Virus record (IMG/VR): IMGVR_UViG_3300030110_000309
Span: 1-20,628 of that record
DNA from: a virus
Reading direction: 5' to 3' (one strand)
Length of the DNA: 20,628 nucleotides
The position numbers and the translations under genes were made by a program. Shown piece after piece: positions 3,920 to 15,159 of this stretch (its first letter is position 1; the number at the start of each line of letters is the position of its first letter). The notes below the pieces were generated by a model that was not told where the DNA came from, made no database searches, and saw nothing but the letters and a program-made list of their open reading frames with translations.

Positions 3920-4288
3920 TTGTTTTTTGATGAAGTATTGCTTGATGACATTGATGAAGAGCTAGATATGGCAGAAAACTATACTCCCCTACCCTATTTT
4001 TTAACTATAAAAGAATCAAGTATTGAAGGATTAGGTTTATTTGCTAAACAAAATATCGATAGGGGAGTGGATTTAGGAGTCTCTCATGTACATCATTACA
4101 AGTTTTTGAATAGTTATATAAGAACTCCACTTGGTGGATTCGTGAATCATAGTGAAGAACCTAACTGCAAACTGGTTGATTACAAGACTGAGATGCATTT
4201 ATATACAACAGAAGCGATTAAAGCTGGGGAAGAACTAACTTTGAAGTATAAACTTTATGACCCAGTGGAGATAATTGATGAGCGATAG
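3920..4288 (+). CDS. SET-domain protein
   Basis: 122 aa from a TTG abutting the previous TAA. An alternative ATG at 3968 gives 106 aa and still contains the whole domain. SET hallmarks are present: IEGLGLFAKQNIDRGVDLG (35-53, the N-terminal G-x-G strand region), FVNHSEEPNCKL (74-85, the NHS-x-x-PNC cofactor/knot motif) and IKAGEELTLKY (100-110, the GEEL...Y motif). By family, SET proteins transfer methyl groups from S-adenosylmethionine to protein lysines. There is no pre-SET or post-SET cysteine cluster, and the protein is near the minimum size for the fold. It lies between a cell-wall hydrolase and the terminase genes; its target (host or virion protein) is unknown. Catalytic activity is not certain from sequence. 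Confidence 0.82.
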   Translation: MFFDEVLLDDIDEELDMAENYTPLPYFLTIKESSIEGLGLFAKQNIDRGVDLGVSHVHHYKFLNSYIRTPLGGFVNHSEEPNCKLVDYKTEMHLYTTEAIKAGEELTLKYKLYDPVEIIDER

Positions 4289-4787
4289 AAATTTTTTCGG
4301 GATAAAAAAGAAGAACAAATTCTTAGATGAAGAGATAATAGATAGATTGTTATATGCAGTTAGTGAAGGTTCATACATAGAAGATGCTTGTGCTTTTGCT
4401 GGTATTACTTCAAGAACATATAGAACTTGGCGAGAGAGAGCAGAGAATGGAGAAGAATACTTTGTTGATTTGTTTGAGAAGATACAAGAGAGAGAATCAA
4501 AGTTTAAAGTAGAGACCCTTCGCAAGATAAAAGAAATAGGAGAAGAAGATAGAAACCCTAGAGCTTTACAGTGGATACTAGAGAGAAAATACCCTACGCA
4601 GTTTGGAGAGACCAGTAAGTTACAGATACAGAGAGAAGATGTAGAAATAGTCGAGATGGAGTTCTCAGATGGCGAATTATATGAAGATTTTCAAACTAAG
4701 GAGCTCATAGATGAGCAGGATACTTCCGACACTTCCGATAATGAGCAGGAAAAAATAAAAGATGATACACTTGAGAATCATGAATGA
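4278..4787 (+). CDS. terminase small subunit-like HTH protein
   Basis: 169 aa from the ATG at 4278, which has GGAG at 4267-4270 (7-nt spacing); the TTG one codon upstream is rejected. The N-terminal half holds a helix-turn-helix of the small-terminase type: AVSEGSYIEDACAFAGITSRTYRTWRERA. Next come a charged helix (EKIQERESKFKVETLRKIKEI) and ALQWILERKYPTQFGE, a motif typical of phage TerS-like proteins. The acidic C-terminal tail (about 120-169) has a repeated DTSD. Family role: recognise the packaging site and recruit TerL. One small gene separates it from TerL. It overlaps the SET gene by 11 nt. Confidence 0.78.
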   Translation: MSDRNFFGIKKKNKFLDEEIIDRLLYAVSEGSYIEDACAFAGITSRTYRTWRERAENGEEYFVDLFEKIQERESKFKVETLRKIKEIGEEDRNPRALQWILERKYPTQFGETSKLQIQREDVEIVEMEFSDGELYEDFQTKELIDEQDTSDTSDNEQEKIKDDTLENHE

Positions 4788-4995
4788 AGAAGAAGTTAAT
4801 CAAGCGTTTGTAGATATTATCATAGATAATTTCTCAGATTATAAAGTAGATGAAGATTTGTTTGCTGATACTGTTGAATACATTATTCCAATGCCAGCTC
4901 CAAACTTCTATTTCATATCTCAGATTCAACCAGAACAAGTAGAAGAGATATTCAACGACTTACTAAGATGGCTTCGTGATGGATACGATTTCTAA
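4780..4995 (+). CDS. small acidic hypothetical protein between the terminase genes
   Basis: 71 aa from ATG 4780; an in-frame ATG at 4762 would give 77 aa. Both overlap the end of the upstream gene, and no strong ribosome site separates them. The protein is acidic and probably mixed alpha/beta (VNQAFVDIIIDNF, PNFYFISQIQPEQVEEIFNDLLRWL). It overlaps the TerL start by 17 nt, so it is translated with the packaging genes. It is not recognised; a packaging accessory factor is only a guess from position. Confidence 0.62.
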   Translation: MNEEEVNQAFVDIIIDNFSDYKVDEDLFADTVEYIIPMPAPNFYFISQIQPEQVEEIFNDLLRWLRDGYDF

Positions 4996-6241
4996 AGTTT
5001 ATAAGACTAAATACAAACTACCTAAGCTACACCCAGCTCAGCTTGAAGTAGCTAAATCAAAAGCAAGATTCAGAATCTTAGTTGCTGGTCGTAGGTTTGG
5101 TAAGACAAGACTAGGTACATTACTTTGCTTAGCGAAAGCTATGGAAGGTAAGAATGCTTGGTGGGTTGCTCCAACTTATGCAATGGCATTAGAAGGTTGG
5201 AAGACTGTAAGAGACTTAGCTGGTAAGTATGGCATGGAAGTTAAAGAATCAGAGAAGACTGTATATACAAAGTCTGGTGGATTCGTAACAGTAAGAACAG
5301 CAGATAATCCAGATAGACTTCGTGGTGCTGGTTTAGATTTCATTGTATTAGATGAGTGTGCATTCATTAAGGAGCAGACTTGGAAGGAAGTACTAAGACC
5401 AACTCTTACTGAGCGGAAGGGCGGTTGCTTATTTATCTCAACACCAAAAGGAATACAGAACTGGTTCAAAAGACTTTATGATGAAGCAGAGAACAATCCA
5501 GATTGGGAGAGATGGCAGTTCTCAAGCTATGACAATCCAATGATTGATAGAGAAGAACTTACAATAGCTAAGAGAGAGATTGGTTCATTCTTATTTAGTC
5601 AAGAGTATGAAGCTCAGTTTGTTGAACAGTCTGGTGGCTTAATTAAATCAGAATGGTTCAAGTATTACACCAGAGAGACACTTACTGAGTTCAATGAAGA
5701 AGGCAACTACCAAGATTATGTTTATATCCAAACACAAGATGGAGCTGTTCGTTTAGAAGACTTAAAGATATATACAACAGTTGATTTAGCTACAAGTACT
5801 AAAGAGTCTGCTGACTATACAGTTGTAACAACAATCGGACTAGATAATCAAAATAATGTTTATGTTCTTGATGTGATTCGTAAAAGAATAGAAGCTCCAG
5901 ATATAGTAAAGCTGTTAGAGCAAGTATATGAGAAGTGGAATCCAGTATCAATAGGAGTAGAATCAGCAGGATTCCAGTTAGCATTAATTCAAATCATTCG
6001 CAGACAAACTACACTTCCAATAGTAAAGTTAAAGGCAGATAAGGATAAGTTAAGTAGGGCTTTACCATTATCAGCAAAAATGGAAGCTGGTATGGTATTC
6101 TTCCCTAATGATGCTTTGTGGTATTCTGATTTGGAAAAAGAATTGTTAGTATTCCCAAGTGGAGACCATGATGACCAAGTGGATAGTCTTGCTTATGGAA
6201 TATTGCAAGTTGCAAAGAAGAAGACAATAACAGCTTATTGA
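4979..6241 (+). CDS. terL: terminase large subunit
   Basis: 420 aa, normal for the family. ATPase: Walker A AGRRFGKT (36-43), adenine/translocation segment WWVAPTY (61-67), Walker B FIVLDE (121-126), coupling motif ISTPKG (153-158). Nuclease (RNase H-like): VDLA with D269, D279 in SADYTVV, E328 in VESAG, and DHDDQVDSLAYG (396-407) with the last acidic residues. It hydrolyses ATP to push DNA through the portal and cuts concatemers. The ATG at 4979 is preferred over the GTG three bases upstream. The portal gene follows after 7 nt with an AGGAG-like site. All catalytic motifs appear intact. Confidence 0.96.
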   Translation: MDTISKVYKTKYKLPKLHPAQLEVAKSKARFRILVAGRRFGKTRLGTLLCLAKAMEGKNAWWVAPTYAMALEGWKTVRDLAGKYGMEVKESEKTVYTKSGGFVTVRTADNPDRLRGAGLDFIVLDECAFIKEQTWKEVLRPTLTERKGGCLFISTPKGIQNWFKRLYDEAENNPDWERWQFSSYDNPMIDREELTIAKREIGSFLFSQEYEAQFVEQSGGLIKSEWFKYYTRETLTEFNEEGNYQDYVYIQTQDGAVRLEDLKIYTTVDLATSTKESADYTVVTTIGLDNQNNVYVLDVIRKRIEAPDIVKLLEQVYEKWNPVSIGVESAGFQLALIQIIRRQTTLPIVKLKADKDKLSRALPLSAKMEAGMVFFPNDALWYSDLEKELLVFPSGDHDDQVDSLAYGILQVAKKKTITAY

Positions 6242-6248
6242 GGAGAAG

Positions 6249-7961
6249 ATGGCAGAACGAAGGAGCTTCAGAGATTTAGTTTTTGGACAAAGAAGGTTCA
6301 GAGATGATACAACTGGATACAAAAGAACAACAGGTTTCAATTTTTTTAGAGATGACCCTAACGATTTAGTTTATGGTAACTCTTCTTATATCTTAGGATA
6401 TAACTCTACTGCTGGAGATTTTGATATGTCTGGATTGGGCAATGGACAATCTAACTCAGCAGTAACAGCATGTCTTCAAGTATTAGGTGTATCATTCTCA
6501 GAAGCAACACTACAAGTAACTTTTGTTGATGAAGATGGACAACCGCAGTTAATACCTAACCACCCTTTTGGTAATCTAATGAGAAGACCAAATCCTTATA
6601 TGTCTGGAGATGTAGTTCAACAATACATTATGAATGCAATGCATGTATCTGGAGATGCATACTTGATGAAGCAAAAGAATAATGCTGGAGAACTTGTAGC
6701 TCTTTATCCACTTATGCCAGAGCAAATAACTGCTAAAGGTAATAAAACAGATTTAATAACTCACTATGAATATCAATTAGAAAATGGCACTGCGGAAATA
6801 AAGAATACAGATATAGTTCATTTTAGATTAGGACTAGACCCAAAGAACCATAAGAAAGGATTCTCTCCACTTAAAACAGTTCTTAGAGAGATTTATGGAG
6901 ATGAGTCTGCTGGTCAGATGGCAACAGCTTTGTTAGCTAACTCTGGTGTGCCATCAATGTTAATTACACCTAAAGATGATTATGGACTTACTGAAACTGA
7001 AGCTGACCAGATATCAAGAACATATCAACAGAAGGTTGGTGGCAAGAATAAAGGTAAGCCATTGATTCTATCTGGTTCTATGAATGTAGAGAAGTTATCA
7101 TTCTCTCCAAAAGATTTAGACATAGGAGCACTTAGAAGGATTCCAGAAGAGAGAGTATCAGCTGTTCTTGGAGTTCCAGCAATCTTAGCTGGTCTAGGAG
7201 CTGGGCTTGAGAGAGCTACTTACAATAATACTTCTGAGCTTAGAGAGTTCTTTACTGAACAAAAGCTCATACCTTTATGGAGAATGGTATCAGAAGAATT
7301 AACTCAACAAGTATTACTTCCAGACTATAACTCTAATCAAGCTGTATCAGCTGAATATGATTTCTCATCTGTAAGAGCTTTACAAGGAGATGAAAAAGAA
7401 TTATTCGATAAGTTAAATGTCGGAGTACAAGGTGGTTGGATAACAGTTGCTGAAGCCAGAAAACAAGTAGGACTTCCAACAAATGATTCACAAGATGTAT
7501 ATTTGCTTAGCAACTCTGTAATACCAACTCAAGCTAATATGGAGCAACCAGAGCCAGCTCAATTAGAAGAGCCAGAAGCTCCAGAGACTCCAGATGTAGT
7601 AACAGAAGATATGGAAGAGAATCAAGAGAAGGGCATTAAAAGATTTGAAGACAAAGTAGTTAGAAGAATAGATAATCAGTTTTGTGTGATTGCTGAAGAG
7701 TCTGGCAGAAATATGGGTTGCTATCCAACTAGAGAATTAGCTGAAGCTAGATTAGAACAGATATCAAGATATAGTAATAATCCAAAAGCAATGGTAGGTG
7801 TAGATGAATTTACAACAGTTGAAGAAGCTCAAGAGAGAGCAGAAGAGATTGGTTGTAGTGGAACTCATCAACATGATAAAGATGGAAATTTAATTTATAT
7901 GCCATGTTCTACTCATGAAGAGTATGAACAAAGATTATCTGATTACAATGGCTCGGATTGA
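6249..7961 (+). CDS. portal protein, HK97 family, with C-terminal extension
   Basis: 570 aa, longer than the usual 400-450. Residues 1-440 are an HK97-type portal: SAVTACLQVLGVSFSEATLQV (wing start), NPYMSGDVVQQYIMNAMHVSGDAYL, IVHFRLGLDPKNHKKGFSPL, LSFSPKDLDIGALRR, VPAILAGLGAGLERATYNN and an acidic clip/crown linker. It forms the dodecameric DNA gate at one capsid vertex. After a Pro/Glu-rich hinge (about 425-455) come two small Cys-containing modules: FCVIAEESGRNMGCYPTRELAEARL, and EEIGCSGTHQHDKDGN followed by YMPC. Similar modules occur as separate pieces near head genes of other phages (recalled). The last 14 nt overlap the next gene. GAGGAGAAG before the ATG is a good ribosome site. Confidence 0.93.
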   Translation: MAERRSFRDLVFGQRRFRDDTTGYKRTTGFNFFRDDPNDLVYGNSSYILGYNSTAGDFDMSGLGNGQSNSAVTACLQVLGVSFSEATLQVTFVDEDGQPQLIPNHPFGNLMRRPNPYMSGDVVQQYIMNAMHVSGDAYLMKQKNNAGELVALYPLMPEQITAKGNKTDLITHYEYQLENGTAEIKNTDIVHFRLGLDPKNHKKGFSPLKTVLREIYGDESAGQMATALLANSGVPSMLITPKDDYGLTETEADQISRTYQQKVGGKNKGKPLILSGSMNVEKLSFSPKDLDIGALRRIPEERVSAVLGVPAILAGLGAGLERATYNNTSELREFFTEQKLIPLWRMVSEELTQQVLLPDYNSNQAVSAEYDFSSVRALQGDEKELFDKLNVGVQGGWITVAEARKQVGLPTNDSQDVYLLSNSVIPTQANMEQPEPAQLEEPEAPETPDVVTEDMEENQEKGIKRFEDKVVRRIDNQFCVIAEESGRNMGCYPTRELAEARLEQISRYSNNPKAMVGVDEFTTVEEAQERAEEIGCSGTHQHDKDGNLIYMPCSTHEEYEQRLSDYNGSD

Positions 7962-12154: not shown

Positions 12155-12775
12155 ATGGCGGTAGTAAATGGATATGCTACTTTAGCTGAATTAAAAACTT
12201 ACATTGGTCTAAGTGGTTCGGGACAAGATACTAACTTAGAGAATGCTATTAATGGTGCGAGTAGGCAGATAGATGCAATAACTGGAAGGTTCTTTTATCA
12301 GACAAGTTCTGAAGCAAAGTACTTTACTCCAGATAATAGAATATTTCTTGTCGTACCAGATATATCAACACCTAGTGGTTTAGTTGTACAACTAGATACT
12401 AATGATGATGGCACACATGATAAAACTATAACTATTAACACTGACTTCTTTTTAAAACCAATAGATGCTGGAAACCAAGTTGATGGAGAAGAGTTCGCTC
12501 CAATAACAGAGATTGCAATATTAGATACAAGAAGCTCAGAACGATTTGACCCTACAATCGTAAAGAATGTAAAAGTTACTGCACAGTTTGGATATAGTGC
12601 AGTTCCAAAAGCAATCAAACAAGCATGCTTAATACAAGCATTAAGATTATTTAAAAGGAAAGATGCTCCATTTAATATTCTTGGTAATGAACAAACTGGA
12701 CAGATAGAACTCTTCAACAAGTTTGACCCAGATGCAAGAGAACTCATAAAGGGTTATATAAAGAATAAACTCTAA
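12155..12775 (+). CDS. head-tail connector protein (gp6-like)
   Basis: 206 aa. The N-terminal helical segment (YATLAELKTYIGLSGSGQDTNLENAINGASRQIDAITGRFF) and the C-terminal helices (AVPKAIKQACLIQALRLFKRKD) are typical of HK97 gp6/SPP1 gp15-like adaptor proteins, which form the ring under the portal. The middle (about 50-140) is a beta-rich insertion. It lies between capsid and gp10-like genes, as expected. Its TAA overlaps the next ATG (taATG). Confidence 0.82.
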   Translation: MAVVNGYATLAELKTYIGLSGSGQDTNLENAINGASRQIDAITGRFFYQTSSEAKYFTPDNRIFLVVPDISTPSGLVVQLDTNDDGTHDKTITINTDFFLKPIDAGNQVDGEEFAPITEIAILDTRSSERFDPTIVKNVKVTAQFGYSAVPKAIKQACLIQALRLFKRKDAPFNILGNEQTGQIELFNKFDPDARELIKGYIKNKL

Positions 12776-13305
12776 TGGCTTCAACTGATATTACATTTAA
12801 AATCACTGGAGCTGAAAATCTAAAGAAGAGATTAAAAGCCAATAACTTATTAATGACACCACTTCGAAACTATATGAATGGTGCTGGCAAAATAATTAAA
12901 GAGAAATCAAAAGAACATGCTCCAGTTGATACTGGTGCTCTTAAAAGAAGTATTAAATACACTAGAGTAAAAAATACTGGAAGGATTCCTACTAAGGTAA
13001 AGATATTTGCTTCTGCTCCACATGCATCTTTTGTGCATGGTAATCCAAATAAAAAACTTAGAATGAGCGAACCATTTAACAGAACTAGACCACACTTTCC
13101 ACCAGTTAAAGCACTCACTGGTTGGGCAAAAAGACATGGCATGAATCCATATATGGTTGCTAATGCAATAGCCCAAAAGGGTACTCCAATAGTTCCATTC
13201 TTAAAAATGGGTTTCAGAGATTCCGCTCCAGAGAGAAAAGTATTATTATCAGTAGCAGGAAAACAAATAGAACGACAATTTAAGAAAGGAAGGAAAAAAG
13301 TATAA
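12775..13305 (+). CDS. HK97 gp10-like head-tail joining protein
   Basis: 176 aa. The family signature HAPVDTGALKRSIKY (44-58) is followed by a beta-hairpin region (KVKIFASAPHASFVHGNPNK) and, near the C-terminus, PFLKMGFRDSAPE. Proteins of this family are head-completion or tail-joining components. A 40-residue insertion (RTRPHFPPVKALTGWAKRHG) sits before the conserved end, as in actinophage and Gram-positive members with an FxP/W-rich loop. It is coupled on both sides by taATG overlaps. Confidence 0.85.
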   Translation: MASTDITFKITGAENLKKRLKANNLLMTPLRNYMNGAGKIIKEKSKEHAPVDTGALKRSIKYTRVKNTGRIPTKVKIFASAPHASFVHGNPNKKLRMSEPFNRTRPHFPPVKALTGWAKRHGMNPYMVANAIAQKGTPIVPFLKMGFRDSAPERKVLLSVAGKQIERQFKKGRKKV

Positions 13306-13712
13306 TGGCTTCTTTATCATCAATAAGGTCTGGCATAGCAACTAACTTAGGAGATATATCTTCCTTAACTGTTTTTGGTTATGTGCCAGACTCTATTGAA
13401 CCACCAACTGCTGTTGTAGGAGTTGTAGATAATATTGAGTATGATTCAACAATGGCTCGTGGTGCAGATACTTATAACATTCCAGTTTTTCTTTATGTAA
13501 GCAGAGTTGATGCTCAAGATGCTCAAGATACATTAGATGCATACTTAGCTTCAAGTGGAGCTAGCTCAGTGAAAGCAAAAGTAGAATCTGATATAACATT
13601 GGGTGGAGTAGCACAATCTGTTAGAGTGGTAGAAGCAGACAACTATGGAGTCTATACTATAAACAACATAGACTACTTAGGAGTCGAATTTATGATTGAG
13701 GTAATAGCATGA
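13305..13712 (+). CDS. tail terminator-like protein
   Basis: 135 aa. SLSSIRSGIATNLGDI at the N-terminus, YVPDSIEPPTAVVGV, an internal Asp/Ala-rich helix (DAQDAQDTLDAYLASSG) and the C-terminal beta strands NIDYLGVEFMIEVIA match the layout of small tail-completion proteins (lambda U/HK97 gp11-like) that cap the tube next to the connector. Assignment rests on size, fold pattern and position between gp10-like and tail tube genes; sequence identity is low. Its TGA overlaps the next ATG (ATGA). Confidence 0.7.
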   Translation: MASLSSIRSGIATNLGDISSLTVFGYVPDSIEPPTAVVGVVDNIEYDSTMARGADTYNIPVFLYVSRVDAQDAQDTLDAYLASSGASSVKAKVESDITLGGVAQSVRVVEADNYGVYTINNIDYLGVEFMIEVIA

Positions 13713-13939
13713 GTTATATAGTTATGAGTGGCATTGATGTCAAAGATAAACGCATTGAAGCTGGCACAAAAGTTACTAAACAAGATTTAGGTAAATCATT
13801 CAAATGGTTACTTGAACAAGGTATAGTATTAGATGAAAAAGATGTGGAGAGAGCTAGAGATGAAAAAGGAAATTTTATAGCTGATGACCCAGATACTCCA
13901 GATGTTGATGAAGCATGGGTCAAGAAGGAAGAAGAATAA
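13709..13939 (+). CDS. small conserved-type protein in the tail cluster
   Basis: 76 aa. The pattern YIVMSGIDVKDKRIEAGTKV, then GKSFKWLLEQGIVL, resembles small proteins found just before the major tail gene in many actinophages (recalled, function unknown). The C-terminal third is acidic and Pro/Asp-rich (IADDPDTPDVDEAWVKKEEE). Coupled by ATGA upstream and taATG downstream, so it is part of the tail translation unit. Confidence 0.7.
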   Translation: MSYIVMSGIDVKDKRIEAGTKVTKQDLGKSFKWLLEQGIVLDEKDVERARDEKGNFIADDPDTPDVDEAWVKKEEE

Positions 13940-14016
13940 TGGGTTATGGAAGAAGTTATGGCTCTGGAAGTGGCACAAGAAGAAGGCGAAGAAGAAGGGG
14001 AACTGGTAAAAGATAA
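13939..14016 (+). CDS. 25-aa Gly/Arg-rich micro-protein
   Basis: ATG 13939 overlaps the previous TAA (taATG) and its own TAA (14014-14016) overlaps the start of the tail tube gene in the same way. This exact double coupling, in an otherwise gapless operon, is the main evidence that it is translated. The product is 25 aa: a Gly/Ser/Tyr start (MGYGRSYGSGSG), seven consecutive Arg, then GTGKR. AAGGA about 12 nt upstream could serve as ribosome site. It has a protamine-like composition; nucleic-acid or acidic-protein binding is plausible but unproven. The alternative is a mere spacer for reinitiation. Confidence 0.6.
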   Translation: MGYGRSYGSGSGTRRRRRRRGTGKR

Positions 14017-14735
14017 TGGCATTCGTTCATGGTAAAGGAACTAAAGTTCATGTTAATGCAGTAGATTTTAGTCAATATTTTAATAATGTAGATGTAACAA
14101 AAACAGCTGATGTAGCTGAGACAACAAATTTTGGTTCTTCTGGTGCTAAATCATATATAGCGGGAGAAGATGATGGAACATTTTCTTTGACAGGATTCTT
14201 TGATGCTACCGCAGATGCAACATTGCAACCATTACTTGGCGGAGCAGATTTTAATTTAGTTGTTGGTATTGATGGCTTAGAGACTGGGGACAGAAGCCAG
14301 TTTGGTTCAGCTAACATTACTAACTATGGTGTATCAAGCCCAACAGGAGATGTAGTTGCAACTTCAATAGATGCTCAAGCAGATAATGGAGTTACAGTAG
14401 GTCTCATTTTAAATGCTGGTGCTTTTACAACAACAGGAGTGCAGGGTTCTGCCAATGACAACTCAGCGAGTTCAACTGGCGGTGGCGGTGCATTCTTAAT
14501 TGTTACAAGTGTTAGTGGTACTTCTCCAACTGGAGATGTAAAGATTCAGCATAGTGCTGATAATGTAACTTACGCAGACTTGATAACATTCACTCAAGCA
14601 ACAGGTGCTACGAGTGAAATTAAGAAAATAGCTGAAGGTACGACAATCAATAGATATGTGAGAGTACATAATACGATTGGTGGGTCTTCAACTCCTACAA
14701 TAAATGCTATTGTGGGGTTTGGAAGAAATAATTAA
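14016..14735 (+). CDS. major tail tube protein, long form with extra domain
   Basis: 239 aa. Residues 1-130 are a tail-tube domain that is clearly paralogous to the next gene: both start MAFVHGK and share TADVAET, LTGFFDATADA and the TNY-x-x-SSP-x-GDVVA segment. Residues 135-239 form a separate beta domain after a Gly/Ser-rich linker (SASSTGGGG): AFLIVTSVSGTSPTGDVKIQHSADNVTYADLITF ending in VGFGRNN, similar to add-on domains seen on other phage tube proteins. In the virion it should polymerise around the tape measure with the extra domain outside. It starts by taATG overlap with the micro-protein. Confidence 0.85.
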   Translation: MAFVHGKGTKVHVNAVDFSQYFNNVDVTKTADVAETTNFGSSGAKSYIAGEDDGTFSLTGFFDATADATLQPLLGGADFNLVVGIDGLETGDRSQFGSANITNYGVSSPTGDVVATSIDAQADNGVTVGLILNAGAFTTTGVQGSANDNSASSTGGGGAFLIVTSVSGTSPTGDVKIQHSADNVTYADLITFTQATGATSEIKKIAEGTTINRYVRVHNTIGGSSTPTINAIVGFGRNN

Positions 14736-14748
14736 GGAGAAGGAATAA

Positions 14749-15159
14749 ATGGCATTTGTACATGGAAAAAGTTCGGTTTTTAAATTAGATAACGCATCTG
14801 GTTCAATGACTGACATAAGTTCTTTTGTAAATAATGTTGATTTCCCAGAGACAGCTGATGTTGCAGAGACATCTGTTCTCGGAGCATCTAATAAGACATA
14901 TATTGTTGGATTAAAAGATGCAACGATTGGTCTCACTGGATTCTTTGATGCTACTGCTGATGCAATATTTGGAGCAGTAATAGGTCAAAGTGCTACTCTC
15001 TCTTTTGAATATAGCCCAGAAGGAACAGCTTCTGGAAAAATCAAATATACTGGCGAATGCATACTTACAAACTATGCACTCAGTTCTCCAGTAGGAGATG
15101 TCGTAGCTTACAGTGGAGACTTACAAGTATCTGGTGCAATCACAAGAGGAACACACTAA
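14749..15159 (+). CDS. second tail tube protein (short paralog)
   Basis: 136 aa, a paralog of the preceding gene without its C-terminal domain. Shared blocks: MAFVHGK at the start, FVNNVDFPETADVAET, LTGFFDATADA, and LTNYALSSPVGDVVA near the end. It has its own AAGGAG site, so its translation need not equal that of the long form. One may be the main tube subunit and the other a minor, distal or decorated ring; sequence alone cannot say which. The pair probably arose by tandem duplication followed by gain or loss of the outer domain. Confidence 0.82.
   Translation: MAFVHGKSSVFKLDNASGSMTDISSFVNNVDFPETADVAETSVLGASNKTYIVGLKDATIGLTGFFDATADAIFGAVIGQSATLSFEYSPEGTASGKIKYTGECILTNYALSSPVGDVVAYSGDLQVSGAITRGTH

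Follow-up and report, generated by a model that had tools for sequence, protein, structure and literature searches.

A conserved arginine-rich micro-ORF in the tail gene cluster of a group of tailed phages

Between a small acidic gene and the major tail tube gene of a single virus record, we identified an arginine-rich micro-ORF that is almost certainly a real, conserved gene. Analyses covered 20,628 of the 21,995 bases of the record (hereafter the window). Substitution patterns among relatives indicate that the micro-ORF is under protein-level selection in one reading frame. Across relatives its sequence is fluid and its grammar holds.

The product contains nine Arg among its 25 residues, seven of them consecutive (Table 1). 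The ATG at 13939 shares one base with the TAA of the upstream ORF (13937-13939), whilst the micro-ORF's own TAA (14014-14016) shares one base with the tube-gene ATG, confirming the double one-base overlap of this 78-bp frame given in a preliminary description, with TAATG at both junctions. That description read the peptide as GYGRSYGSGSG followed by seven Arg; both blocks are present, but one Thr lies between them. Its argument that so exact a fit is unlikely unless the frame is translated did not hold for the window taken alone. No other open frame of 15-45 codons on the plus strand is bounded by TAATG; 200 mononucleotide shuffles of the whole window yielded an average of 0.315 such frames per strand (maximum 2), and the shuffled 72-base interior of the micro-ORF remained open in 17 % of trials. 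The overlap fit was therefore dropped as evidence by itself, and it is conservation in relatives that exceeds chance. The Shine-Dalgarno-like site 5' of the start, within the last codons of the upstream gene, has a duplex energy of -5.7 kcal/mol; over the 76 micro-ORF loci described below the mean was -6.0, compared with -2.3 at random positions. The 3' end of the micro-ORF in turn contains a Shine-Dalgarno-like sequence for the tube gene (mean -6.5, n=65).

Table 1. Features of the window around the micro-ORF, and loci of the Cys-rich micro-ORF in relatives
Feature	Position or loci	Strand	Remarks
Portal ORF	6249-7961		DUF3721 match, residues 521-556, E 1.9e-8
Head-tail adaptor	12155
HK97-gp10-like tail completion protein	12775..13305	+	PF04883, E 4.9e-8; 176 aa, net charge +29, basic C-terminus
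Tail terminator	13305..13712	+	phrog_17840, E 7.8e-36; net charge -12
Small 76-aa gene	13709..13939	+	Acidic C-terminus, net charge -7; no PHROG or Pfam match
Shine-Dalgarno-like site	13922..13930	+	AAGAAGGAA
Arg-rich micro-ORF	13939..14016 (stop included)	+	25 aa, MGYGRSYGSGSGTRRRRRRRGTGKR
Major tail (tube) protein with extra C-terminal domain	14016..14735	+	phrog_9522, E 9.9e-48; net charge -11
Second, shorter tube-like paralogue	14749..15159	+	Assigned by DNA identity to the tube gene
Tail assembly chaperone	15191
Tape measure	15707		Net charge -36
Cys-rich micro-ORF	L055, L064, L095, L156, L161, L164, L165, L179, L181, L182, L190, L212, L247, L254; L206-L285

Relatives were collected as tube-gene homologues from IMG/VR in two scans (80 kept of 217 and 80 kept of 358), so the distribution reported here is that of the kept relatives. 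Counting identical upstream intervals once gave 83 distinct intervals; one locus was left out as its match began at residue 7 (L114) and three were skipped because the upstream sequence was too short (L028, L136 and L138). A 17-34-aa ORF rich in Gly/Tyr/Ser and Arg was present in 76 of the 83, a total that includes three atypical members, one starting inside the upstream gene (L073) and two with fewer Arg (L067 and L133). One further interval (L064) held a Cys-rich ORF only; our script had called it Arg-positive, and it was removed by eye as the ORF concerned is part of the upstream gene read out of frame. The remaining six (L068, L089, L111, L112, L148 and L174) had neither an Arg nor a Cys ORF. 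Start codons were mostly ATG, 51 of the 76 lying within TAATG, and at the 3' end 59 stopped on the tube-gene ATG, 6 abutted it and 11 ended 31-47 nt before it. All but one of the 76 members carried a Tyr among residues 1-12, and the last two residues included Lys or Arg in every member. Overall composition was 34 % Arg, 26 % Gly, 17 % Ser and 8 % Lys, with net charges of +8 to +15. Although Lys is cheap to encode at 36 % GC, Arg is preferred: the R:K ratio was 656:150 in the micro-ORFs versus 294:426 across 24 other window ORFs, and Arg was encoded by AGA, AGG, CGA, CGT and CGC (codon counts include L064). The preliminary description had proposed looking in relatives for a short Gly/Arg frame between the same genes, and had held that an interval varying in length and frame without keeping Arg/Gly codons would speak against a peptide. 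The frame relative to the upstream gene does vary by locus, as does length, but the Arg/Gly codons are retained.

Selection on the frame was assessed in 17 independent close pairs, where pN/pS was 0.47 for the micro-ORF frame, compared with 1.16 and 1.21 for the two alternatives. The synonymous share was 0.41; 500 random placements of the same base changes gave 0.27 (sd 0.03) and never more than 0.36. As 6 of the 17 pairs differ by a single base, the signal comes mostly from the remaining pairs. The +1 frame was interrupted by stop codons at 11 of the 76 loci, the +2 frame at every one. Readthrough of the upstream TAA into an acidic +1 frame (EEGEEEGELV) was also considered, and was rejected because that frame carries stops in some relatives (for example L027 and L031) and because the micro-ORF lies in the upstream gene's own frame in L060 and L061.

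The six relatives that lack an Arg ORF had no copy elsewhere in the available loci, nor did the whole records of L068 and L148; the whole record of L064 likewise contained no Arg ORF, and these three records may be fragments. Some of these loci are very close to carriers, L068 falling beside L073 and L148 beside L154. The micro-ORF would thus be dispensable in some phages, or sits outside these records. In a rapidly built tree of 92 tube proteins, with SH-aLRT support only and no outgroup, at least seven changes were needed for the Arg state and six for the Cys state; the six Arg-less rows accounted for five changes and were scattered. This scatter suggests that the Arg ORF was probably ancestral to the kept set and lost repeatedly, gain and loss not being formally separable on such a tree. 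Among 16 cultured phages with a distant tube gene, the 4 that were inspected had a small gene at the upstream place and no Arg ORF. Searching a collection of genome contigs for prophages or hosts recovered no tube-gene relatives, and a terminase search for the same gave distant matches only.

Twelve of twelve family members gave no match to Pfam, PHROGs or NCBIfam at E 1, and a PDB sequence search with the peptide returned no match. Cultured phages likewise yielded no match to the micro-ORF, a null result that is weak because the BLAST low-complexity filter was on. No description of such a peptide was found in open-licence PMC literature. The earlier suggestion that the frame is probably unannotated is consistent with these results, as judged from these libraries.

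To locate copies irrespective of the tube gene, the viral collection was scanned with a DNA pattern comprising the start half and the Arg run, with nothing required after the ORF. This returned 50 stretches, which are not independent as many lie on contigs already among the relatives; 48 were real micro-ORFs and 2 (L329 and L350) arose by chance. The tube gene followed 47 of the 48 real copies, directly or via one Cys micro-ORF, with the contigs of L331, L347 and L353 breaking off within that gene. The exception was L334, in which the Arg ORF (6239-6316) lies after the HK97-gp10 gene and before the tail-terminator gene, overlapping each by one base; no Arg ORF precedes the tube gene at 6969 in this contig, its copy lying two genes upstream. 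A tighter pattern, built from the end half and TAATG, matched 17 stretches, every one before the tube gene and on a contig from the first scan. No further copy away from the cluster was detected in approximately 1.15 Mb of (redundant) loci; the only unrelated matches there, six in cultured phages (L102, L104 and L105), were taken as chance. A DNA pattern unable to match the window's own ORF produced four matches, one of them real (L190). DNA patterns were used in place of a peptide-alignment search, which confirmed one locus only, probably as low-complexity sequence defeats the tblastn confirmation step.

The AlphaFold2 model of the tube protein had a mean pLDDT of 76.5, with residues 28-52 poor. 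It resembles the monocin tail tube (8qhs, probability 1.00, E 0.034), and the C-terminal domain (residues 130-223) resembles a Bordetella phage cement protein (3j4u, E 8.7e-4; profile E 5e-4). The model thus supports the tube assignment and predicts an added decoration-type domain, and is silent on peptide binding. The adjacent paralogue shows 71 % DNA identity to part of the tube gene over 140 bases, and both proteins start with MAFVHGK.

We propose that the micro-ORF is a microprotein gene of the late phage operon, putatively translated in tandem with its neck and tail neighbours via its own Shine-Dalgarno-like site plus coupling. The predicted product, a strongly cationic peptide, would be intrinsically disordered, its head made up of Gly/Tyr/Ser and its tail of poly-Arg. 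It would act in trans, not only via its translation, and, while head and tail are joined or the tube is assembled, would bind a polyanion, for which the end of the DNA in the neck and the acidic tail proteins (tube, terminator, tape measure and the 76-aa protein) are candidates. Action in trans is suggested by the L334 copy and by those copies parted from the tube gene by another ORF. A polyanion partner is suggested by the persistence of the gene in the HK97-gp10/terminator/tube cluster and its retention of charge and Arg over exact sequence, and the neck or tail as the site by its adjoining the basic gp10-like protein and the acidic tube, terminator and tape-measure proteins. A role in cis would equally predict the near-fixed position ahead of the tube gene, and a single relocated copy was found. 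We put the chance that the micro-ORF encodes a trans-acting cationic peptide of neck/tail assembly at about even.

A leader acting in cis would have micro-ORF translation, or a slow poly-basic nascent chain, set reinitiation on the tube gene, with the peptide itself lacking a target. The many stops that overlap or abut the tube-gene ATG fit this reading, as such junctions couple translation, and so does the position of all but one of the real pattern copies. Coupling leaders with -1 nt overlaps, as covered in PMC10666635, are alike in that at most loci the micro-ORF overlaps each neighbour by one base; it differs from the leaders treated there in its kept composition, its separability from the tube gene and the one copy elsewhere. 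According to the same paper, coupling is nearly abolished at a distance of about 20 nt. A leader should lie directly before the gene that it controls, but the L334 copy precedes the terminator and the 11 ORFs that end 31-47 nt away still keep their composition; together with the loci separated by a Cys ORF, L334 argues against a pure reinitiation leader. A leader should also function independently of its amino acids, whereas selection was frame-specific and composition fixed, coupling does not need the conserved Tyr/Gly head, and the tube gene has a Shine-Dalgarno-like sequence after the ORF too. Reinitiation control of the tube gene as the main role, an option raised in the preliminary description, is weakened by these observations and appears rather unlikely, with cis action as an added role in most loci being possible.

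Alternatively, the peptide could be a host-directed product of the late phase, acting on host DNA, RNA or membranes or helping lysis, for which the tail operon supplies only timing and level. Poly-Arg/Gly composition generally fits nucleic-acid or membrane binding, and absence from some close relatives is as seen for many accessory genes. Accessory host-directed genes are usually more mobile, however, and every copy seen remains in the neck/tail cluster; we consider this explanation rather unlikely. That the tract is a purine-rich DNA or RNA element without coding function, or that the frame is open by chance, seems extremely improbable: the tract is indeed purine-rich, and double-TAATG frames do arise in shuffled windows, but selection is specific to one frame and the others carry stops, an Rfam search of the region gave no match, and its RNA folds worse than shuffles (z = +2.0).

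Protamines and the baculovirus core peptide P6.9, which condense nucleic acid, are short, rich in Arg, Ser, Gly and Tyr, and have hardly any acidic or hydrophobic residues. The micro-ORF peptide is like them in being short and in its Arg-dominated composition with very few acidic or hydrophobic residues. It differs in having half their length or less, in lying in the tail cluster of tailed phages, in being known from sequence alone and in the lack of any family match among the 12 members searched. The Arg-rich RNA-binding peptides of the lambdoid N type, encoded in an early operon and targeting an RNA hairpin (nut/boxB), are likewise short phage peptides, but the micro-ORF belongs to a late structural operon, its Gly/Tyr head should not be helical and no family match was found. 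FUS-type proteins combine two stickers, [G/S]Y[G/S] and Arg-rich segments; of the 76 micro-ORF members, 75 have a Tyr between small or basic residues, with an Arg block after it. Here there are only one or two Tyr in about 25 residues and no homology, so that the likeness is one of sequence pattern. More speculatively, a Tyr/Gly/Ser-head, poly-Arg-tail 'sticker' microprotein might, as the tail is built, draw DNA or acidic tail proteins together into a condensate or plug located at the neck or tube, in some phages together with a 12-16-aa Cys-rich (mostly four-cysteine) peptide encoded by the next micro-ORF, as an undescribed class of phage assembly peptides; we regard this fuller scheme as distinctly improbable.

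Tail genes are among the best-mapped phage genes, yet the profile libraries searched contain no entry for this conserved additional product encoded beside the tube gene, plausibly owing to its small size and low complexity. The peptide may also be overlooked because trypsin-based proteomics cuts Arg runs to nothing. Were it a tail or neck component, it would be a missing part in the tail assembly of this phage group.

A Cys-rich ORF of 12-16 aa was found directly before the tube gene in 11 loci, in 10 of them 3' of the Arg ORF, so that it separates the Arg ORF from the tube gene in 10 of the 76 Arg-ORF loci. Its forms were mostly CCGxxCCGG or CCGxCPDxCKGG (MDCCGxGCCGGK and MNCCGxCPDxCKGGQ). 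The pattern M[DN]CCGxxCCGG matched at least 120 stretches at no fewer than 98 distinct viral loci. Among the 98 distinct matches listed, 94 were exactly 12 aa long. By simple motif labels of context, 61 of the 98 follow a membrane-like protein of approximately 60-70 aa, and 40 of these precede a conserved gene of approximately 196 aa; 5 follow a tail-terminator-like gene and 6 occur with the Arg ORF and the tube gene described here. The membrane-protein context suggests a lysis-like setting. The Cys micro-ORF may be more striking than the Arg ORF, and its spread suggests more unlisted peptides of 12-30 residues in phage late operons. In L213, L234, L245 and L278 the Cys micro-ORF is followed by a 34-37-aa ORF ending in DDCGD(A/S)CKI, a small conserved Cys protein. 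In L216, an extremely Glu/Val-rich acidic protein of 410 aa (4140-5372, minus strand) is encoded upstream of the membrane-like protein and Cys micro-ORF.
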